From Anaerolineae bacterium CG2_30_57_67 (lineage in GTDB: Bacteria > Chloroflexota > Anaerolineae > Anaerolineales > Villigracilaceae), in assembly GCA_001872455.1 (NCBI GenBank), contig MNXJ01000064.1, positions 1 to 50,868 on the forward strand: a DNA stretch of 50,868 nt, written 5' to 3'. Shown here in pieces: positions 2 to 10,663 of the stretch. Each line of letters starts with the position of its first letter. Position 1 is the stretch's first letter. Both the position numbers and the translations under genes were made by a program. The notes under the pieces are model-generated. The model saw nothing but the letters and a program-made list of their open reading frames with translations, was not told where the DNA came from and searched no databases.

Positions 2-67
2 TGTTGCCATTTGGCGTGGTTGGCAAAGGCTACAGGATATGGCGGCTACTTGGGCGCTGATTGCTGA
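2..67 (+). CDS. C-terminal tail of an upstream gene (partial)
   Basis: The frame beginning at base 2 is open from the window edge to a TGA at 65-67. That stop overlaps the ATG at 67-69 of the next gene by one base, an arrangement typical of translational coupling. The 21-codon tail is too short to identify. The frame beginning at base 1 is also open, to a TGA at 58-60, so the choice rests only on the overlap. Confidence 0.3.
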   Translation, partial: CCHLAWLAKATGYGGYLGADC

Positions 68-357
68 TGACCATACCATACTTATGGGTAATAGATAGGA
101 CATCTCAGGCTTTGGATAATATTAAGGCGGTGTTATCGTCTTCTGCCTATGCGTCACATGACCCCGATCAAATTAAAATCGCAATCGCAGATGTTCTGAC
201 CAAATTTGACGAAAAACTTGCCAGTATTGATGCTAATCCCAAAATCGTTCAAGAAGCCAGCGCCGAACAAGAACATGATGATAGCATTGGAAGTCTTAAA
301 AAAACTTTGCTGAAACTACTGGACCGTAAACCACCTGAAAGAACAGGCGACAAATGA
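67..357 (+). CDS. Small hypothetical protein of the A/T-rich island
   Basis: A 96-residue protein that I do not recognise. I chose the ATG at 67 over the TTG at 61 because it overlaps the stop of the preceding frame (TGATG). The protein is predicted soluble: a short hydrophobic start, then helical stretches rich in D, K, E and A, with a basic C-terminus. No catalytic motif is visible. Its stop overlaps the next gene's start (ATGA at 354-357), so the two are almost certainly co-translated. It may be a small partner of the HerA/VirB4-like protein that follows; that is inferred only from coupling. Confidence 0.55.
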   Translation: MTIPYLWVIDRTSQALDNIKAVLSSSAYASHDPDQIKIAIADVLTKFDEKLASIDANPKIVQEASAEQEHDDSIGSLKKTLLKLLDRKPPERTGDK

Positions 358-1433
358 CCTGGATCTCTCCCGGTATTGAAGTAAGCAACGGGGCGGGAGG
401 TTGGCAGGCGATGATGGCTTGGCAGATCTGTTTGCGTCCTTATAAAGAATGGATTAATTCACGTTGGGGGTTTAATGCCAGCGTCTTGCTGGAAGAAGCT
501 CTTGACCGCCTAAAACTTTTTATTGAGTCACAATATGTTATTGATTTTGATTTTCAAGTAGAGTGCCGTAACCAGCGCTCAGTTGTTTTGCGCAGCATAA
601 ATTACCCCCAAAAAGGATTATCCTTGGGATTGCTTGGAAAAATTTATGCTGCGTCAGAACAGCAAATTTATACAGATGCCTTGGCTTTTGGCCGCGAAAT
701 GGAGTCGGTTTTTCCACATGACTTTTTTCTACATCGCGCATCAACCGAACAGGAATTTCGTCAAGTTAACGGTAGCAGCATCTTGGATGGTACGAATCTT
801 GACGTAAGCATCGTTGCAATTCGACGAGGAGATGTATTTGTAAAAGAATTTCAAACAATGCCAAGGTTTTCAGGTTTTTGGCAAGCCAGTACACGTTCCA
901 GCGAGCAAATTTGGCGCGCCCTGGCCGGCACAGATCGCCCATCTTTGTTTAGCGTTTCGCTCCGTCCAACGGTGATTTACGAACAGGAACGGCAGTTTCT
1001 GCTTGAGGCAAGACAGAATGTAGCCAACTTGGACAAGCAGCAGAATCAAACATCATCGCTGGCTTTATATCAATCTTGGGCAGAAAGTTATCTCAAAAGA
1101 CGGCTGACACCCTGGAAGAAATTCTTCAATCTACACGTGCATGTAGCCATGATTGGAGAGATGGATGAGAGCTTACCCAGAAATATTGGGGCGGCAATTA
1201 CACGGGATATTGGTGAACAGTCATTGCCAGGCTTTCGAATTGTCACACCGCAGTCAGGTAAAGAGAGCATTGCATGGCGCAGGGAGATTCTTCAGATGAA
1301 TGCTCTACCGTTGTTCACCCGACTCGATGAAATTGCCGATCTGGAAGAAGCATTTTCAGTTTTTCGTTTGCCTTATTTACCTGAAACCGGGTTGCCCAAT
1401 GTTAAGTTTGTTTGCCCTGATAAAGAACAATAG
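354..1433 (+). CDS. HerA/VirB4-like N-terminal domain protein lacking the ATPase domain
   Basis: A 359-residue soluble protein coupled to the preceding gene by an ATGA overlap. The last third resembles the region just before the motor domain in HerA/VirB4-type (DUF87) ATPases: an 'LRPT' segment near residue 204, a long helix, then 'FRLPYLPETGLPN' near the C-terminus. In such proteins a Walker A ATPase domain would follow, but here the frame stops after about ten more residues and no P-loop is present. The family assignment is by eye and could be wrong. The stop TAG lies in the ATAGAT hexamer bordering the MITE-like element at 1430. Removing the elements would leave the same TAG, so they did not cause the truncation. 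A separate ATPase could complete it in trans. Confidence 0.6.
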   Translation: MTWISPGIEVSNGAGGWQAMMAWQICLRPYKEWINSRWGFNASVLLEEALDRLKLFIESQYVIDFDFQVECRNQRSVVLRSINYPQKGLSLGLLGKIYAASEQQIYTDALAFGREMESVFPHDFFLHRASTEQEFRQVNGSSILDGTNLDVSIVAIRRGDVFVKEFQTMPRFSGFWQASTRSSEQIWRALAGTDRPSLFSVSLRPTVIYEQERQFLLEARQNVANLDKQQNQTSSLALYQSWAESYLKRRLTPWKKFFNLHVHVAMIGEMDESLPRNIGAAITRDIGEQSLPGFRIVTPQSGKESIAWRREILQMNALPLFTRLDEIADLEEAFSVFRLPYLPETGLPNVKFVCPDKEQ

Positions 1434-1624
1434 ATGACTTTACTGCAAAAACCCATTCACCGCACGCGTACCTGCGGTTGGTGCAAGCAGAGACGCGGAG
1501 TATACAGAGCGCAGAAAATGCTTTTTCGGCAGTAAAACGCTGATTTTTTTCCAGAAAAAGCAGAAACATCTGCGTTCTTTGCGTCTCTGCTGTAAGATTC
1601 TCATTTTGCAGTAGAGTCATAGAT
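1430..1624. mobile_element. MITE-like element 1
   Basis: No gene; a non-coding element with 17-bp terminal inverted repeats, ATGACTTTACTGCAAAA at 1434-1450 and its complement at 1604-1620 (one mismatch). Inside, a perfect 11-bp inverted repeat (AGCAGAGACGC at 1486-1496, complement at 1581-1591) and further imperfect pairing let most of it fold into one long hairpin. The hexamer ATAGAT occurs on both sides (1430-1435 and 1619-1624), as a target-site duplication would. The inner motif around 1571-1591 resembles the 'TCTGCG...TCTCTGC' interspersed sequence common in environmental bacterial genomes. Confidence 0.7.
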
Positions 1625-1750
1625 GACTCCACTGCAAAAAGGTTATTTTCTGCAGCGTTACCGCCATATGTACGGGCTTGATTGTTGCAAAAGCGCCATA
1701 TGTGGTGGATGCCTGCTGAATAGTTGATCTATTGCAGTGGAGTCATAGAT
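1619..1750. mobile_element. MITE-like element 2, tandem with element 1
   Basis: Bounded by ATGACTCCACTGCAAA at 1623-1638 and its near-perfect complement at 1731-1746 (15 of 16), the same ends as element 1. The interior is different and shorter and contains a direct repeat CGCCATATGT (around 1662 and 1695). It shares the ATAGAT hexamer at 1619-1624 with element 1 and has another at 1745-1750, so three hexamers delimit two elements. It ends about 45 bases before the start of the sensor-kinase operon and may affect its promoter. Confidence 0.65.
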
Positions 1751-1792
1751 GGTTCTTTGAGAATTTCTGTGGTAAGACCCCAATAGATTACG

Positions 1793-4012
1793 ATGAAAAA
1801 AACATCCAAAAAGACCGTACATGTTCGGGTTATCAAACAACTGGCCATTGGCTTATCTGTAGAGGCTGACGACGGTAGCCGTGGACTTGTTCGCGCGAGA
1901 GAAATTTCGTGGGATGAAAATCGGCGCGCAAATTGGAAAAAAAAATATCCGATTGGTTGGAAAGGACAAGCAACCATCATCACTTTAGATAATAGCCAAA
2001 CAATAGAGTTTAGCATCCGCTTGGCAGAAAAAGATCCTTGGGATGACTTGGCTAGTAGAATTCACAACGAAAAGATATTCGTTGGGATTGTGGGGGGGGT
2101 TGTTGGGTATGGGGCTTTCATCGAAATTGCGCCGGGAATCAGCGGGCTTTTACATCGGTCACAGTTACCTGTTTGGTTCAAGGGTGACCCACTAAACTTA
2201 TTTTGGCCCGGCGACAAGGTAAAAGTAACCGTCCGTGCAATAGATTATGGGCAGAGACGAATCAGTTTAAGCCTGCCTTTTTCCCAAGTTCCTGAAGAAG
2301 ATAAAAATTTGCGTAATGTGTCGTCTATGTCGTCAATGAAGGACAGTGGATGCCCACTGCCAAGCATCACATCCAACCTGACAGAGTTTATACGAAAAGG
2401 AACAGCAAAAAAGCATATTTTGGTGGTAGAAGATGAACCAGAACAACGGGTTGCATTATCTAATTGGCTGCGTAAAATTGGACAACGGGTAGAAGTGGCG
2501 GAAAACTCTGAAAAAGCATTAGCCTTATTACAAAAAACGCAGCCAGATATTGCCATTATTGATATTGGCCTCCCCAAAATAAATGGCGCACAACTAGCCG
2601 AAATGATTTTAGACCAATGGCCGAAAGTGCGCGTGATCAGCACCACTGATTGGGCGCGTGCTGACGAAATGATGGAAATGCTTGAAAAACTTCAGGCGCG
2701 CGGCGTGGAGTTGTTGATTAAGCCCCTTTTACCGGAAGATATCATCCACCTTCTAGAAAATCAAGGCAAAGGTTTTCTCAGCCCGTTACCAAATAACGTT
2801 GAAGAGAATAGAGCAGAACTTACACTATCAGAAGTTTCCGCGTCAAACGAAAGCCAGAAAATCAAAGCACTATTACAACAATTTCGCCTTCTGCTGGGGT
2901 TTGAACAGGTGATTTTATTCACTTTTGATTCAGCGCAACGATCAGTCTCTATTTTGGAACAATCGGGAGGAACACAATTTGGGAAAAAAGTAATTTCATC
3001 CCTGATTTTTAGTCCGGTCAGAGATGTGGCAGAAAGCCGGCAAGCAATCTTTGTCAACGAAATTTCGCCTTTGTACGAGGAGCGTTTTCGATATCTTTTG
3101 GAATTTATTCCAACGATGAAAAGTTGCATTGGGGTACCTGTTTTTGTACAAACAACAGCAAGCTATGCCCTTTTTGCCATTGATGCAAAACCGCACCAAA
3201 TTAGTAATGAACAACGCGCTTACGCTACTGCAATGGCATTAGCGATTAGTTCAGTCCTGGAACAGTACATTTTCCAAGAAAAAGCAATTCTTATGCAACG
3301 CGCGGCGCTCATTGGTCAGTTAACGCGCGCCTTAGTGCATGAAATCAACAACCTGATAGCGCCACTCGCTTCTCGTTTGGGAAATTTACAGGAAAAACTC
3401 TCGCTGCTCGAAAAAAGTCCGCATCCCCTAGATTTACAAGAACAACGCAACCATTTAGTCGAAAGCGAATTAATTGAATTTCAAACCTATATTCGCAAAA
3501 TAATTGGCACAACCCGCATGTTTGGGCATATTGCGGCAAAAGAGAAAAACGAGATTTTGCGTGTGGATAAAATTATCGAAGAAACTTTATTTCTCTTACG
3601 AGATACCAGCAATCGCTTGCATGTAACGTTTCTTTTTACTCCCCCAGATGAATTTGTTGTTATTCGAAACCAGGGCGCAGCCCTGGAGCAGGTTCTGCTG
3701 AATATTATGCTAAACGCTATCCAGCAAATCTCTGAATTACGTCCAGATATTGGTGGTTGGGTGCGAATATCTCTGCAATCGCGCCCATCAAATTCTACTT
3801 CTCTGCGTATTTTAGTGGAAGATAATGGCCCCGGTATTCATGTGAGCCTTTGGGAAAAAATATTTGATGTTGGGTTTACCACACGGCGAGATGGCAGTGG
3901 TATTGGGCTATATATCTCGCGCAGTCTCATGGAACAAATGGGCGGAAAAGTATACATTCAAGACAGCCAGGTTTTGGGTGGTACTACATTTGCAGTAGAA
4001 GTTCCTTGTTGA
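1793..4012 (+). CDS. Hybrid sensor histidine kinase with N-terminal S1 domains
   Basis: A 739-residue cytoplasmic protein with no membrane segment. Domains in order: a degenerate S1-like OB fold (about 9-75), a clear S1 domain (about 92-162, with 'GYGAFIEI', 'GISGLLH' and 'RRISLSL'), a receiver domain (about 208-325; acidic pair 213-214, phospho-acceptor D257 in 'IIDIGLP', K310), a GAF domain (about 355-495), then a kinase core with H516 in 'LVHEINN', an N-box 'NIMLNAI', and G-boxes 'DNGPGI' and 'GSGIGL'. The receiver lies before the kinase, unlike usual hybrid kinases. S1 domains normally bind RNA, so the input could be RNA or the ribosome; that is inference. No good Shine-Dalgarno precedes the ATG. 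The next gene starts 15 bases downstream. Confidence 0.88.
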   Translation: MKKTSKKTVHVRVIKQLAIGLSVEADDGSRGLVRAREISWDENRRANWKKKYPIGWKGQATIITLDNSQTIEFSIRLAEKDPWDDLASRIHNEKIFVGIVGGVVGYGAFIEIAPGISGLLHRSQLPVWFKGDPLNLFWPGDKVKVTVRAIDYGQRRISLSLPFSQVPEEDKNLRNVSSMSSMKDSGCPLPSITSNLTEFIRKGTAKKHILVVEDEPEQRVALSNWLRKIGQRVEVAENSEKALALLQKTQPDIAIIDIGLPKINGAQLAEMILDQWPKVRVISTTDWARADEMMEMLEKLQARGVELLIKPLLPEDIIHLLENQGKGFLSPLPNNVEENRAELTLSEVSASNESQKIKALLQQFRLLLGFEQVILFTFDSAQRSVSILEQSGGTQFGKKVISSLIFSPVRDVAESRQAIFVNEISPLYEERFRYLLEFIPTMKSCIGVPVFVQTTASYALFAIDAKPHQISNEQRAYATAMALAISSVLEQYIFQEKAILMQRAALIGQLTRALVHEINNLIAPLASRLGNLQEKLSLLEKSPHPLDLQEQRNHLVESELIEFQTYIRKIIGTTRMFGHIAAKEKNEILRVDKIIEETLFLLRDTSNRLHVTFLFTPPDEFVVIRNQGAALEQVLLNIMLNAIQQISELRPDIGGWVRISLQSRPSNSTSLRILVEDNGPGIHVSLWEKIFDVGFTTRRDGSGIGLYISRSLMEQMGGKVYIQDSQVLGGTTFAVEVPC

Positions 4013-4027
4013 ATCGAAAGGATTTTT

Positions 4028-7000
4028 ATGTGCCGCGTTCTAATTCTTGATGATAATGAGGATGCCGCCAGGCAGGTTCAGGATACTATTCAAATTCATA
4101 ATTTTGCCCCTGCCACTGTGTGCATTCGATTAGACGACGCTTTGGAACAAGCAAAAAATGCTTTCAGGCATGGAAAACCTTATGATATTTTCTTAATTGA
4201 CCTTGTTCTTGGGCCGGGAAAAGATGGCATTGAAGCGATGAAAGAGCTGCGTTACGTTAGCCCCGATTCTGACGCCATCATCTTTACCGGATTTGGGGAC
4301 GTGGAAAGCGGGCTAAGAGCCTACCGGGCTGGAGCCTTTCGCTATTTAGCCAAACCATTTGAAAACCAGGAACTACTTTTTTTACTGGAAGCGCTCAAAG
4401 AGCGGCGCAAAGCGCAGCAAGAGAATAATTGGCAGAAAATATTTTCCAAAATGTTGGAATCCGCTCTTCTGCAGACTAATTTTCACACTGTTGTTGGGGT
4501 TGTACTTGCTCATTCACTTGAATTAGGCTTTGAGAGGGCTCATTTATTTTGGATTCCGACTCGTAAAGATGTGGAAAAAGGTCTATTGCTTTGGAAAAAA
4601 TCTTCCGAAAACAAGTCTATTATCAATTTTCGCAACCGCACATTTTCAGACTGGTTTGGAATTTATCACATAACCCAGCCCTATGAATCCATTTTTTTGC
4701 AAAGTAGTGAAATTAAAATACCCGCTCCTGACGCTAAACTTACCGGCTATGACTTGCCCGTTGGAGAAACTGCCGTTCTTCCACTCATCAGCATCAGCCA
4801 GGAAAAATTACTGGGAGCGCTGGTATTAGATTTTCGCTGGACCGAAAAAAACCTTAATCAGCACGAGCGTTCAATGCTTAATTTATTTATGCATCAAGCC
4901 TCCATGGTTCTGGAACGTGTTACTGATTATGAACGTAAGCAACTTGCTCTGCACGAATCAGATGATATTCGCATCCTTGCTCGCGAGGTGACAAAAAAAG
5001 CGCCCAGTGGCGACTTACCCATGCTTTTTGATGAAATTCGCAGGCAGGTGAACAATCGGGTTAGTGATGTATCCAATTTTGGCGCGGCAATGTTGGATAA
5101 AGAAACAAACGAATTAGTTTTTTATTTGCTCTATGAGAATGGAACACGCAAACAAGAAACACGTTGTTCTACGACACGCGGCCTCGAAGGTGTTCTGATT
5201 TTGAACCAAAATGAAGTTTTCTTAAAAGATAAAAATGAAGTCAAAAAATTTATTTATGAAAATGATATCCACATGGAAGGCAAGATTCCTTCTGCCTGGA
5301 TGGGGGCGCTTATATTCGTAGAGGACGAACCAATCGGCTGTATTTTTATTCAACAATTTGGACAACAAGCCAATTTTTCCGAAAATGAGTGGGAATTTTT
5401 TCTCAAAGTAATTAAACAATTATCGCCAGCTATTAATGTTTGCAAAACAGCCAAAAATGAAAGGGAAGACAAAGAGAGAGTTCAGGTGCTTCAACGCGCC
5501 AGCTTCGAGATGATGCGAATTGCTCATCATAATGAAGAATATTTCTGGCTCACTGTATTAACTTTAGCTACATCAAATTTTGGATTAAGGTTTAACTGCG
5601 CCTTATTGTTTCTGGCCGATGATAATCACAGTTTCTTGCGTGGAAAAATGGGAATTGGCACAAAGAACAGGCGAGACGCTTTTCGGGATTGGGAAAGAGA
5701 CCAACAAAAGCACTATAATTTTGATACGTTTCTGAAAAATTTAGAAGCTAACAATATTCATCGCACCCCTTTTGAAAAGATTGTTAGCAAAGTAAGCGTT
5801 AAGCTGGATAACCGCGCGCTTGCTATTAGCGACGTTATGGTCAGCGGTACGAGGAAGCTGCTATCAGAAAGCGAGGTGAAAACGTGTTTACCGTCTGATA
5901 TTTCAAGGCGCTTTTCGCTTTCTGCATGTGCCCTTTTGCCTTTGCGAGCGGGTGCAAATATTTTGGGATTGGTGATTGTTGATAATAGACATACTCATCA
6001 GCAGTTTGATGCAACAGCGCTTGATCGCTTGCAAACATTGTTGGATAATGCTGGTTTGGTGTGGGAAACACTTCGTCAGAATCAGAAAAGCGAAATCTTA
6101 TTGGATGTCAATTATCAAATTTTGAACGCCGCCAGTGGTCAGACGCTTAAACATACCCTTGATAGCATCTGTGAGGCTGCCCGCAAAATTAGTGAGGCTG
6201 ATTGGGCCGTTATTTATCCCATCCGTCCCAAGACAAATGATTTGTACACCTTTGATACGGATAGCATTGGGCATGATGGCCGCCTAAAATCTCCAATCCG
6301 AAGTATACGAATTCAGCCAAGCCTGGGCGGTGTATCAGAACATGTACTGAGCGAGGGGATGTTGAAAATTTGTGACATGGATGGTAATGACCCATTGGTA
6401 GAAAACCTGGAGCTGAATAATCACCATTTTATCAAGGCTGAAGGGGTTAAAGCATTGATAGGTGTGCCTATTATTGACCCTCACACACCAGACTCACTGG
6501 GAATTCTTTATTTGGACTACCAACATCCGCGCGATTTTTCTGACCAGGAAATTCATCATGCTAAATCTTTTGCCAGCCTGGCTGCAGTTGCTATTGCTGA
6601 CTCGAAACGGTTGGATGAGCAGAGGCAGCGCGAAAGGCTCAAAGTGGCCCTTGAAACAGCCGAAACTATCAGCAAGGAACTTGAGGTGGATGAAATCTTA
6701 ACCAAAATTTTTCAAAAACTTATTACACTTTTCAAGCAAACCTCTATATGCGTCTTAGAATATGATGCGGACGAAAATGCTTTGAAGTTTGCGCCGATAA
6801 CGCCGAAGTTTTATCGCATTCAAAATCAGAAATATGAAAATCGTCAGGCTTTTTTGCTAACTATAACCGAGCAAGGTTCAATCGCGTGTGCGGTTGCCAG
6901 AAAATCTTTGAAGACGCACAAGCCTGAACATATCAATGAACCCGATGTCTCCAGCAATCATTACTATCTACCGCTTAACCATAAAACGCGGGCAGAATTG

Positions 7001-7840
7001 TGCGTCAGTTTGATGAGTAGCAATGGAGATTTGCTGGGAGTGCTTGCGTTGGAGCGCGGCTTAATCAATGCCTTCAATGACGATGATGTCTCACTTATAG
7101 AGACTGTTGCCCGCCAATTAAGCCTGGCAATGGAGCGCGCCGAACAGGGAGAACGGATAAAATTTCTTTCTACAGTCTCAACAATGACGGCCTGGGCATC
7201 AGACATTGCGCATGATATCAAAAGTGAGATTGGTAATTTGAAATCCTTGGCTTACCTCATACAAGAATCTGCCCCTGAAAATCTGAAAGTTTGCGAATAT
7301 GCCAAACAGATTGACGAGAGCGCGTGTAACCTATCAGAGGCAGGGTATTGGAACGAACAAATTCAAAGTCCCATTTTATTAGAGAATGCCCTCAAGCAGT
7401 GCATTGAGATTTATGCACATCAGCGCGCCATTACAATCCAATATCACTTTGACAATACACAAGATGTTTATATTCAAGCAAGTCTTACAGAGTTAAAGCG
7501 GGTATTTCATCATTTGATTAAGAACGCAGCCCGGGCAATGGAATATGAGCCGGAAAAAAAAATCACTATTTCCACGCACCTGCGATCAGATGGTCATGTA
7601 GAAATTTTACTTCAGGATTTTGGTCCGGGCGTAGTAGATGAAGAAGTGCGCGCTTATATTTTTCATCGTCAGGTAGAAAAGAAAAACAAAAATGGGGGTT
7701 ACGGATTGTTGCTTGTGCGTCAATTGATTGAGAACAACATGAAGGGCAAAATTAAATTATTGCCATTTGATAAAACCATGCGAGGCGCAGCTTTTTTGCT
7801 AAAGTTACCAATATTAAACACTTCGCCATCTGTCGAGTGA
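4028..7840 (+). CDS. Response receiver-multi-GAF sensor histidine kinase
   Basis: A very long cytoplasmic signalling protein (1270 residues). A receiver domain (1-125; acidic residues at 8-9, phospho-acceptor D58, K109) is followed by about five GAF-type modules (roughly 140-300, 320-470, 490-680, 700-860, 880-1040). It ends with a short dimerisation helix carrying 'DIAHDIKSEIG' (probable phospho-His near residue 1063) and an HATPase domain with 'NAARAM', 'DFGPGV' and 'GGYGLLLV'. The start follows AAAGGA at good spacing. The arrangement suggests the preceding kinase could phosphorylate this receiver, with the GAF array integrating several small-molecule inputs. GAF borders are approximate because the modules are divergent. 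It is the second gene of a four-gene operon. Confidence 0.88.
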   Translation: MCRVLILDDNEDAARQVQDTIQIHNFAPATVCIRLDDALEQAKNAFRHGKPYDIFLIDLVLGPGKDGIEAMKELRYVSPDSDAIIFTGFGDVESGLRAYRAGAFRYLAKPFENQELLFLLEALKERRKAQQENNWQKIFSKMLESALLQTNFHTVVGVVLAHSLELGFERAHLFWIPTRKDVEKGLLLWKKSSENKSIINFRNRTFSDWFGIYHITQPYESIFLQSSEIKIPAPDAKLTGYDLPVGETAVLPLISISQEKLLGALVLDFRWTEKNLNQHERSMLNLFMHQASMVLERVTDYERKQLALHESDDIRILAREVTKKAPSGDLPMLFDEIRRQVNNRVSDVSNFGAAMLDKETNELVFYLLYENGTRKQETRCSTTRGLEGVLILNQNEVFLKDKNEVKKFIYENDIHMEGKIPSAWMGALIFVEDEPIGCIFIQQFGQQANFSENEWEFFLKVIKQLSPAINVCKTAKNEREDKERVQVLQRASFEMMRIAHHNEEYFWLTVLTLATSNFGLRFNCALLFLADDNHSFLRGKMGIGTKNRRDAFRDWERDQQKHYNFDTFLKNLEANNIHRTPFEKIVSKVSVKLDNRALAISDVMVSGTRKLLSESEVKTCLPSDISRRFSLSACALLPLRAGANILGLVIVDNRHTHQQFDATALDRLQTLLDNAGLVWETLRQNQKSEILLDVNYQILNAASGQTLKHTLDSICEAARKISEADWAVIYPIRPKTNDLYTFDTDSIGHDGRLKSPIRSIRIQPSLGGVSEHVLSEGMLKICDMDGNDPLVENLELNNHHFIKAEGVKALIGVPIIDPHTPDSLGILYLDYQHPRDFSDQEIHHAKSFASLAAVAIADSKRLDEQRQRERLKVALETAETISKELEVDEILTKIFQKLITLFKQTSICVLEYDADENALKFAPITPKFYRIQNQKYENRQAFLLTITEQGSIACAVARKSLKTHKPEHINEPDVSSNHYYLPLNHKTRAELCVSLMSSNGDLLGVLALERGLINAFNDDDVSLIETVARQLSLAMERAEQGERIKFLSTVSTMTAWASDIAHDIKSEIGNLKSLAYLIQESAPENLKVCEYAKQIDESACNLSEAGYWNEQIQSPILLENALKQCIEIYAHQRAITIQYHFDNTQDVYIQASLTELKRVFHHLIKNAARAMEYEPEKKITISTHLRSDGHVEILLQDFGPGVVDEEVRAYIFHRQVEKKNKNGGYGLLLVRQLIENNMKGKIKLLPFDKTMRGAAFLLKLPILNTSPSVE

Positions 7841-7853
7841 AGGAGAATCAATA

Positions 7854-9530
7854 ATGCTTACCCAAATTGGCAATTTGAGCGGATCACCCCGTATTCTGAT
7901 TGTAGATAATGAAAAACGAACTGTTCATATTTTTCAGGATTTAATTTCTCACTGGGGGTATGTGCCGATTATTGCCTCAGGCGAAGGCCCTGCCCTACTG
8001 GAAGATGCAAAAAATAAGGCGCGTGAATATCGTTGCCAACTTGCCCTTGTAGATATGCGCTTAATAGATGATTCTGACAATGATGACATCAGTGGCCTGG
8101 AATTAGTAAATCAAATTAGACCGGCCATATCCATTGTCGTCAGTGGACACGGTAATTTAAAAATAGCGGTTGGCAGTATTCAGAAAAATGGGGCGGCAGG
8201 TTTTGTTGAAAAAAATGATCTCCCGCTGGGTTTGCAGGAGAAAATTAAGTGGGAAGCAGCAAAAAATTGCGCCCATGCGCGCGAACTAAAAATTTATCCA
8301 TCAGAAATAATGGTTTCCATCAAAAAAACGCTGTTTGATGCGAACGTTGCTCCTGAATATCACGACCAGGTAGAAGATATTTTAGCGCGGCTCTTTCCCA
8401 CAGCCAGTACATTGCGACTCGAAAAAATGAACACAGGAGATGATACATCTGGCATTGCCACTGCTCCACGTCCGCGTTCGGTTGTTTTGAAAGTATATGA
8501 GGATGAATTTCAACCGGTTATTATCAAGCTGGCGCGCAAAACAAAAATAAAAAAGGAAACCAACCGTTTTTCACAATATATCAAAGGCCGTTTGGTGGGA
8601 AATTTTGTTCCCAAGCTGGAAGATTCATGCTGTTTATGGGATATTGGTGGAATTAAATTTTCCTACGTCGGGAGCATTGATCAGACCTTTGGTCACTTTT
8701 TTCAATCTGCATCCGTACCAACTATTGAGAAAACATTAGAACGATTCTTTAAAATTACCTGGTCATATCATTTTAAGCGAGCAAAAGATAGATTTGATGT
8801 TTCTCTTTTTGAACTCTACTGCTCTGTATTAGACCATGATTGGTATGAACGCGCACTTAAATTTAAAATCCCCAATCCTGAAATTTTTATGGGCGCAGAT
8901 GTATGGCGACGGATTAATGCTAAAGATCCCATTGAGTGGCTTATCCAAAAAATAGGTAGCAACACGACCGGCGATGCCAGCCATGTTGCAAAAACCCGCA
9001 TCGCTGTTACGCATGGCGACTTGCACGCTGATAACATGCTGGTAGACGATAGTCAAAATGCTTGGGTCATTGATTTTGAACGCAGTGGAGAAGGTCATGC
9101 CTTGCAAGATTTTATTGAGTTAGAATCAGACATTATTAACCGCATGACACTTGGCAATCAAAATTTTTCCGATTATTATCATCTCTGCCTGGCCGTAGCA
9201 AGCTCGCAGACTACCGGGAAAATGAACATCGCCTGCCTCGCTGATGCAGGCTCTGACATGCAAAAGGTGATACAAATCATTGCCACTATACGTTCTTTGG
9301 CGCAAGAATGTACCGGCATAGTAGATGCGCGCCAATACATGCTTGGTTTATTTTTCAATACCATTTTTCGCGCTACAATTGACAAGGACTTTCGCATTAT
9401 GGATGATGACCAAATCCGGAGTCAACGTTCAGCACTGATGTTGGCAAGCATTTTGTGTTTTCGGCTGGAACATTGGGATGAACCCTGGCCGCCAAAACAA
9501 TGGGAAAATTTACAAGGAGAATCCAAGTGA
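7854..9530 (+). CDS. Receiver domain fused to an aminoglycoside-phosphotransferase-like kinase
   Basis: 558 residues. The N-terminus is a receiver domain (about 12-130; D67 in 'ALVDMRL', K120 in 'FVEKND'). After a linker, residues about 190-500 form a protein-kinase/APH fold: the catalytic loop 'THGDLHADNML' (near 386-396) and the metal-binding 'VIDFERSGEG' some 20 residues later match the Brenner motif and the DFG-equivalent Asp of APH and choline kinases. It starts after a strong AAGGAG, 13 bases past the preceding gene. Phosphorylation of the receiver probably gates the kinase, whose substrate is unknown. It may belong to the ternary-complex-associated (TCAD) families of bacterial conflict systems; I could not test this. 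Antibiotic resistance is unlikely given the receiver fusion and operon. Confidence 0.85.
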   Translation: MLTQIGNLSGSPRILIVDNEKRTVHIFQDLISHWGYVPIIASGEGPALLEDAKNKAREYRCQLALVDMRLIDDSDNDDISGLELVNQIRPAISIVVSGHGNLKIAVGSIQKNGAAGFVEKNDLPLGLQEKIKWEAAKNCAHARELKIYPSEIMVSIKKTLFDANVAPEYHDQVEDILARLFPTASTLRLEKMNTGDDTSGIATAPRPRSVVLKVYEDEFQPVIIKLARKTKIKKETNRFSQYIKGRLVGNFVPKLEDSCCLWDIGGIKFSYVGSIDQTFGHFFQSASVPTIEKTLERFFKITWSYHFKRAKDRFDVSLFELYCSVLDHDWYERALKFKIPNPEIFMGADVWRRINAKDPIEWLIQKIGSNTTGDASHVAKTRIAVTHGDLHADNMLVDDSQNAWVIDFERSGEGHALQDFIELESDIINRMTLGNQNFSDYYHLCLAVASSQTTGKMNIACLADAGSDMQKVIQIIATIRSLAQECTGIVDARQYMLGLFFNTIFRATIDKDFRIMDDDQIRSQRSALMLASILCFRLEHWDEPWPPKQWENLQGESK

Positions 9531-10663
9531 CAACCATTCCTTCTCAGACCCCCGTCTCTTTTCGGCAAGAAACACTCAAACCCTTTTTTGAGTATGTGCG
9601 TAGTGGCGAATCCTTTTACATTGTCGGCGCATCCAGTGTTGGGAAAACCCGTCTTGTAGATTTTTTATTGGGTGATGATCCTGAACTTTTACGCGCCAAT
9701 ATCGAGCCTGATCGTGAGCAAGTGAAAAACCATTATTTGGGGCAAGAACTGTCGGCCCGCACCTGGTTGGTTCGAGTGGACTTAAATCGCATGGGAGCCG
9801 AATATGATTGGGGTTTTCGCTTTTATGAATTATTGTTGAGCGCTTTATTGTTTGAAACTGGACGTTTATTCCAAACAGATGAAATAGACCAAATTAAAAA
9901 CATACTCTCCGGCCTTGATTCTGCCGTGATGGAAAGCAAAGACCCCTTACGGGCGCATCGTCTTTTGGAAATGGCGATTAATCAATTGTGCCAATCGAAC
10001 CGCATTAAACTTTGTTTTCTTTTTGACGAATTCGATGAAACCTATCAAAATATGCCGCGTGAGATTTTTGCTCAATTACGCGCCATTCGAGACGCCAATA
10101 AATACCGTCTTTGCTATGGATTATTTATGCGCAATTTGCCCGAAAAATTACGCTCTCCATTGGAAAACGAAAGTTTTTACGAACTAATTTCGCGCAACCT
10201 GATCGGCGTTGGCCCCTATTCGCGCGAAGATTCGATTTATATCCTTCAGCAGTGGGAGAATCGCCGCATCTATCCGCTTTCGCCTGACAAGCGTGAATGG
10301 ATTTATCTGAATAGCGGTGGACATCCAGGAATGATGCAGGCTCTTTTTGGAATTTTCAAGGAAAAACCTTTGGCGATGACCATGTTCTCTAATCTAGATT
10401 GGTATGTTGCCCAAGAAACAATCCAAGAAGAATTTCGCAAAATTTGGGGCGGCCTGCTTGATGATGAGAAATTAGGGTTGTTAAGTTTTGTAAATGGAAA
10501 TTTTTCTGCTACACTGCTCCCAATAAAAAAAATATTGTATGCCAAAGGTTTGCTTCAACCGTTTGAAACAAGCACAATTTGCTTTAGCCCCCTTTTTGAA
10601 CTCTACCTAAAAAGCCAGCTAGCTAATCCACAGGGGCTTTCTCATGATCCTCCAGGCACATAA
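9527..10663 (+). CDS. AAA/STAND-like P-loop ATPase
   Basis: A 378-residue ATPase. I chose the GTG at 9527 because AAGGAG at 9514-9519 precedes it and it overlaps the upstream stop (GTGA); an in-frame ATG at 9500 lies upstream of that site. Walker A 'GASSVGKT' is near residue 34 and Walker B 'LCFLFDEFDE' near 163. Further on, 'NSGGHPGMMQ' resembles the sensor-2/winged-helix entry seen in STAND and Orc1/Cdc6-like ATPases. No repeats or effector domain are fused to it, so it would act with partners, most likely the phosphotransferase it is coupled to. It is the last gene of the island operon. Confidence 0.85.
   Translation: MTTIPSQTPVSFRQETLKPFFEYVRSGESFYIVGASSVGKTRLVDFLLGDDPELLRANIEPDREQVKNHYLGQELSARTWLVRVDLNRMGAEYDWGFRFYELLLSALLFETGRLFQTDEIDQIKNILSGLDSAVMESKDPLRAHRLLEMAINQLCQSNRIKLCFLFDEFDETYQNMPREIFAQLRAIRDANKYRLCYGLFMRNLPEKLRSPLENESFYELISRNLIGVGPYSREDSIYILQQWENRRIYPLSPDKREWIYLNSGGHPGMMQALFGIFKEKPLAMTMFSNLDWYVAQETIQEEFRKIWGGLLDDEKLGLLSFVNGNFSATLLPIKKILYAKGLLQPFETSTICFSPLFELYLKSQLANPQGLSHDPPGT

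Follow-up and report, generated by a model that had tools for sequence, protein, structure and literature searches.

An operon built around a histidine kinase with a ribosomal S1-type domain pair in Chloroflexota: a candidate RNA sensor

The window analysed here is the stretch of 50,868 nucleotides from position 1 of contig MNXJ01000064.1 of Anaerolineae bacterium CG2_30_57_67. Near its left edge lies a run of genes, all on the forward strand, that includes a histidine kinase beginning with two S1 domains, which we call S1HK. The genes and the features within S1HK are listed below with the evidence for each.

61..357, + strand, C-terminal remnant of an SPFH (Band_7)-like gene, the first of the operon, truncated at the contig edge (C-terminus likeness to full SPFH genes of relatives, by eye)
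354..1433, + strand, G1, a stand-alone VirB4/HerA N-terminal-domain-like protein of 359 aa without an ATPase domain (AlphaFold2, structure match)
1430..1760, + strand, repeat element with inverted repeats (ATGACTYYACTGCAAAA), between G1 and S1HK (genome copies)
1793..4012, + strand, S1-S1-REC-GAF-HisKA-HATPase histidine kinase (S1HK), 739 aa, ATG start (open reading frame, Pfam and NCBIfam)
1817..2023, + strand, S1 domain 1 (residues 9-77), bS1 D3 equivalent (AlphaFold2 model, fold match, conservation, rpsA comparison)
2030..2041, + strand, 'KDPW' inter-S1 linker (residues 80-83) (alignment of homologues, PDB profile search)
2063..2278, + strand, S1 domain 2 (residues 91-162), bS1 D4 equivalent (Pfam, AlphaFold2 model, fold match, conservation)
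2417..2755, + strand, S1HK receiver domain (residues 209-321) (Pfam; D257 and K310 present)
2867..3262, + strand, S1HK GAF-like domain (residues 359-490) (Pfam GAF_2, weak, below cutoff)
3338..3340, + strand, H516, phospho-acceptor His of the S1HK H-box (HEINN) (48/48 homologues)
3677..4006, + strand, S1HK HATPase_c (residues 629-738) with N/G1/G2 boxes (Pfam)
4028..7840, + strand, REC-multiGAF-HATPase second kinase, 1270 aa (Pfam; H1062 and D58 conserved)
7854..9530, + strand, REC-APH (TCAD9) protein, 558 aa (Pfam; REC D67 and K120 invariant)
9500..10663, + strand, AAA_16-like P-loop NTPase (Walker A GASSVGKT, Walker B FLFDEFD, SGGHPG motif)

S1HK is a soluble kinase, and its architecture is real. 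Pfam places S1 (PF00575) at the N-terminus in two stretches (E 1.7e-13; 51.2 bits against a cutoff of 22), Response_reg at residues 209-321 (E 2e-19) and HATPase_c at residues 629-738 (E 1.7e-19), while NCBIfam recognises residues 28-161 as tandem repeats of 30S ribosomal protein S1 (E 4.6e-23). Both marks by which a histidine kinase is known from its sequence, an H-box His and a HATPase_c domain with N and G boxes, are present, the conserved ATPase motifs being N641, DNGPGI and GSGIGL. Among 48 homologues the phosphotransfer residue H516 is found in all 48, E517 and N520 each in 44, and D257 and K310 each in 47, and from these residues the kinase is predicted to be active and its own receiver to be phosphorylatable. 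S1HK shares the H-box, the HATPase and a receiver with Asp and Lys with cytosolic REC-GAF hybrid-type histidine kinases, but differs from them in carrying an N-terminal S1 pair of the RNA-binding type and in having its REC ahead of the kinase core. Since the protein has no transmembrane segment, any sensing would be cytosolic. Nor is S1HK the ribosomal protein bS1 itself, which has four to six S1 repeats, as it has two S1 repeats only and no N-terminal repeats D1-D2, and a separate rpsA with four repeats is present in the same genome.

The first-pass annotation had placed two S1-type OB folds ahead of the receiver at 1793-2290, and this reading is borne out: the coordinates correspond to codons 1-166 of S1HK, and Pfam, NCBIfam, an AlphaFold2 model and the fold match to bS1 D3-D4 all point to the same pair. 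Over residues 9-162, where the OB folds had been expected, the model, built with an alignment of 46 homologues, predicts two five-stranded barrels (residues 8-74 and 95-160; mean pLDDT 89.2). Its top Foldseek match is the NMR structure of D3-D4 of Vibrio bS1; 7a05 is likewise matched, and alignment by VIA-align with residues 190-350 of bS1 (9gut_B, from the 30S mRNA delivery complex) gives a Z of 15.3 and an rmsd of 3.2 over 158 residues. When the 46 homologous N-termini are turned into a profile and searched against the PDB, bS1 chains come up at E 2.7e-78. The two domains are joined by a linker in which W83 is invariant (48/48), and a DPW linker also lies between D3 and D4 of bS1. Profile and modelled fold alike make the S1 pair a homologue of the mRNA-binding D3-D4 unit of bS1, with which it shares the tandem S1/OB arrangement, the linker, the fold and the best profile matches. 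It differs from bS1 in that the ribosome-docking D1-D2 are missing, in that the first domain has Arg in place of His, and in its fusion to a REC-GAF-histidine kinase.

The S1-S1-REC architecture recurs in tens of genomes, and a chance origin is therefore excluded. Of 396 genomes sampled from the class, 25 have it (two of the 25 partial); a draw of 400 genomes from the phylum added two that lie outside this class, and among genome contigs about 40 loci bear it, nearly all of them Chloroflexota, so that its distribution is patchy. The best relatives share 43-54% identity with S1HK along the full length, and a maximum-likelihood tree places the window protein inside a clade of 20 with support of 100/100. 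The closest relative (56-57%) is on contig L075, which is labelled Nitrospirae and bears the whole six-gene operon, with its S1HK nested inside Anaerolineales; this contig is either mis-binned or the result of a recent transfer. No S1HK relatives were found in viral contigs, and plasmids gave only generic histidine kinase matches and no full-length relative.

The first-pass annotation did not consider the operon context, which we regard as the more important half of the finding. In relatives the order of the six genes is SPFH, G1, S1-kinase, REC-multiGAF kinase, REC-APH and AAA, and where more than 9 kb of sequence follows the S1-kinase (25 loci), the multi-GAF kinase comes next in 23, REC-APH is present in 23 and AAA in 13. 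H1062 of the multi-GAF kinase is invariant among homologues. The REC-APH gene matches TCAD9 (PF19974) at 87.9 bits against a cutoff of 40, as do 29 of 34 homologues, and in the clade of the window its kinase motifs HGDLHxxN and DFE are intact. The NTPase at 9500-10663 has Walker A and B, its AAA_16 score of 21.9 bits lying below the cutoff of 32.6. No convincing transmembrane segments were found in the proteins of the operon. G1 belongs to no Pfam family, but its AlphaFold2 model (pLDDT 85.4) aligns over 282 residues with the VirB4/TrwK ATPase, in the N-terminal domain of the latter (Z 19.0), and its sequence shows homology with HerA/DUF87 ATPases in their N-terminal part; we therefore read it as a VirB4/HerA N-terminal domain without the motor. 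It shares the VirB4 N-terminal-domain fold with VirB4/TrwK and the HerA-DUF87 ATPases, but as it has no ATPase domain it is not a VirB4 ATPase. In the closest relatives G1 and the S1-kinase are adjacent. The repeat at 1430-1760, of which four further copies (130-190 bp, 84-90% identity) and short fragments occur in the same genome, may weaken co-transcription. The full SPFH genes in the operons of relatives contain Band_7. At 1-120 of the window, near the contig edge, the truncated SPFH frame is interrupted upstream of its conserved C-terminus, by a frameshift, an assembly error or divergence.

The module is conserved across families and in a second class. One deep-clade locus (L155) has the S1-kinase, the multi-GAF kinase, a REC-APH-wHTH protein, SPFH and G1 together, so that their association is old; a search for G1 in the genomes of five deep-clade loci found none, and as it was run without a positive control it says little. 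Several sister loci are flanked by metabolic or repair genes only, so that the module appears to be discrete. PADLOC, Pfam and a literature lying mostly outside subscription papers were searched, and none describes it. Thus the S1-kinase module, anchored by S1HK, is conserved and apparently undescribed. For the S1-histidine-kinase fusion itself, a literature search that lay mostly outside subscription papers, and is weak evidence in that respect, found no published description.

What the module does is best approached through the fusions of its REC-APH protein in relatives. There REC-APH is fused to TIR_2 (L114:16200-18326, E 2.3e-23), to a caspase C14 domain (L167:559-3087, E 8.9e-20) or to CHAT (L109:5447-7888, E 3.3e-6). 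By eye, the His/Cys pair is kept in both the caspase (YFSGHG, DACH) and the CHAT domain (HFSGHG, NACF). In a deep clade REC-APH is fused to an OmpR-type winged helix (Trans_reg_C) and its APH catalytic motif is degenerate; in another clade it is the AAA protein that bears the winged helix. TIR, caspase or CHAT occur in only three of the REC-APH members examined, more of which have a winged helix or nothing. In the window neither a toxin nor a DNA-binding domain is fused to the operon's proteins, and the operon adjoins housekeeping genes with no recognisable defence island. In a PADLOC scan the only matches were short, generic ones in the REC domain and a weak one to JetA on an SPFH relative. 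The effector fusions in relatives link the module to biological-conflict systems, that is, to immunity and cell death, and the S1HK family appears to be a previously undescribed branch of two-component signalling with such links.

Swapping of effectors on a constant sensor and relay core has been described for the NTP-dependent conflict systems (PMC7159879, PMC8195603). These systems, which include vWA-MoxR-VMAP, iSTAND and TERNS3, share with the S1-kinase module TCAD9/APH, receivers, TIR and caspase effectors and an AAA/STAND-like NTPase. In contrast to them, the module has no MoxR-vWA core, and a conserved pair of histidine kinases takes its place as the core. The vWA-MoxR ternary system was considered as a home for TCAD9 and was rejected, as Pfam scans of the operon's five complete genes found neither vWA nor MoxR. 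In the 2020 paper no histidine kinases are among the vWA-associated effectors (PMC7159879), and in the 2021 paper TERNS3 effectors include S1 domains fused to OST-HTH (PMC8195603).

It has been reported that D3-D5 of bS1 bind mRNA (PMC11759276) and that D3 reaches high RNA affinity in cooperation with D2 or D4 (PMC3858243). Domain 2 of S1HK carries the canonical RNA-face residues Y106, F109, H121, D151 and R155, whereas in domain 1 both aromatic positions are lost (I19, S22) and the canonical His is replaced by R34 within an S1HK-specific R34-x-R36. The same pattern holds in the window clade (n=20), where domain 2 has Y/F106, F109 and H121 in 20/20 and R155 in 19/20, and domain 1 has mostly lost its aromatics but has R34-x-R36 invariant; at the positions of the two Arg, the corresponding repeat of the Chloroflexota rpsA genes examined shows His and Ser (or Thr). 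In the other S1HK clade domain 1 often has F/Y19 with F22, and domain 2 often has Pro for H121. A protein that has the aromatic pair in one domain tends to lack it in the other (Fisher P 2e-5 overall and 0.02 in clade B, uncorrected for phylogeny), and at least one complete pair is kept in 44 of the 48 homologues. With this retention and the RNA binding reported for bS1, RNA binding by the S1 pair seems likely. Conservation of the RNA-face residues does not significantly exceed that of the rest of the S1 fold (P = 0.07 in clade A, no excess in clade B). The suggestion in the first-pass annotation that the kinase might sense RNA, nucleotides or ribosome state, for example phage or stress RNA, stands in part: homology to bS1 D3-D4, the cytosolic location and the TIR/caspase-family effectors of relatives speak for it, while the partial loss of the canonical face and the lack of significant excess conservation speak against it. 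Overall, RNA sensing by S1HK is plausible and is supported by context, and given the effectors in relatives it is reasonable to suppose that the signal is of the kind of stress or phage RNA.

We propose, with a probability of roughly 45%, that the S1-kinase module is a stress or conflict system triggered by RNA or by the state of translation. The sensory head of S1HK would be a captured tandem S1 pair of the bS1 D3-D4 type, most likely binding single-stranded RNA, whether free mRNA, foreign RNA or RNA exposed by failed translation. Such binding, combined with what the neighbouring REC and GAF contribute, would set autophosphorylation of H516, as the intact motifs suggest. From there phosphate may pass to the receivers of S1HK itself, the multi-GAF kinase and REC-APH, a route consistent with their co-occurrence and intact Asp and Lys. 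REC-APH together with the AAA NTPase would form the output switch, which in relatives has a TIR, caspase, CHAT or OmpR-type DNA-binding domain fused directly to it. In the lineage of the window the REC-APH protein, with its intact motifs, presumably acts with the SPFH and VirB4-NTD-like proteins as a possible scaffold, and our best guess for its output is an APH-type small-molecule or protein kinase activity. A narrower form of the proposal, in which the captured ribosomal mRNA-binding module lets the phosphorelay recognise foreign or aberrant RNA, or stalled translation, and fire TIR/caspase-type or transcriptional effectors, as a bacterial RNA-sensing immune kinase, we hold to be doubtful at present.

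Other functions of the S1 pair have to be weighed against this proposal. The pair might be a protein-protein or ribosome-docking adaptor that holds the kinase at the ribosome, at RNA polymerase or at another protein of the operon, with sensing left to REC and GAF. Such a role would fit the loss of canonical face residues in one or other domain, the invariant and family-specific R34 and R36 and a face conservation not above background; however, an aromatic pair is retained in most homologues, and in structure the pair most resembles the mRNA-binding D3-D4 and not the ribosome-docking D1-D2, and we think an adaptor unlikely. Alternatively, the S1 pair could be the output, its RNA binding being controlled by phosphorylation of the REC that follows directly with D257 and K310 intact, and the GAF and kinase half being the input, so that translation or mRNA would be regulated. 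The order of the domains is compatible with this, and the ANTAR response regulators (EutV, NasT/NasR) also join two-component signalling to an RNA-binding domain. In ANTAR, however, that domain is an output helical bundle for antitermination, whereas in S1HK an S1/OB pair heads a kinase, at the far N-terminus where inputs usually lie, and the operons already have separate REC-APH and wHTH outputs; we regard this reading as quite improbable.

An ordinary lineage-specific stress phosphorelay, in which S1 was gained by domain accretion and does little and the TIR and caspase fusions reflect the general domain promiscuity of Chloroflexota, would account for the small number of toxin-like fusions and for the metabolic genes that flank several loci. 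It is harder to reconcile with the conservation of the module beyond one family and class and with the S1 pair itself, which is kept in the deep-branching homologues found, with W83 and D141 invariant, and is thus under selection. We give this explanation, too, only a small chance. Under the preferred reading of an RNA- or translation-triggered system, the S1HK family is a conserved and testable candidate RNA sensor, having a bS1 D3-D4 template, intact phosphorelay motifs and TIR, caspase or DNA-binding outputs in relatives. To our knowledge, no histidine kinase is known to sense RNA or the state of translation directly. If the reading is true, two-component signalling would be linked with nucleic-acid-sensing immunity, and a core ribosomal mRNA-binding module would have been reused as a sensor.

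Several variants were seen in the course of this comparison. Deep-clade operons at L099, L100, L104 and L105 have an extra REC protein of about 290 aa, and the L035 copy of this protein has a hydrophobic segment that is possibly membrane-spanning. At L038:8377-9147 an S1-S1-REC frame of 256 aa ends within the receiver domain and is either a broken or a stand-alone version. Another S1-NTPase fusion of Chloroflexota, a 1276-aa protein at L175:2532-6362, combines three S1 domains with an ATPase_2 (STAND-like) NTPase.
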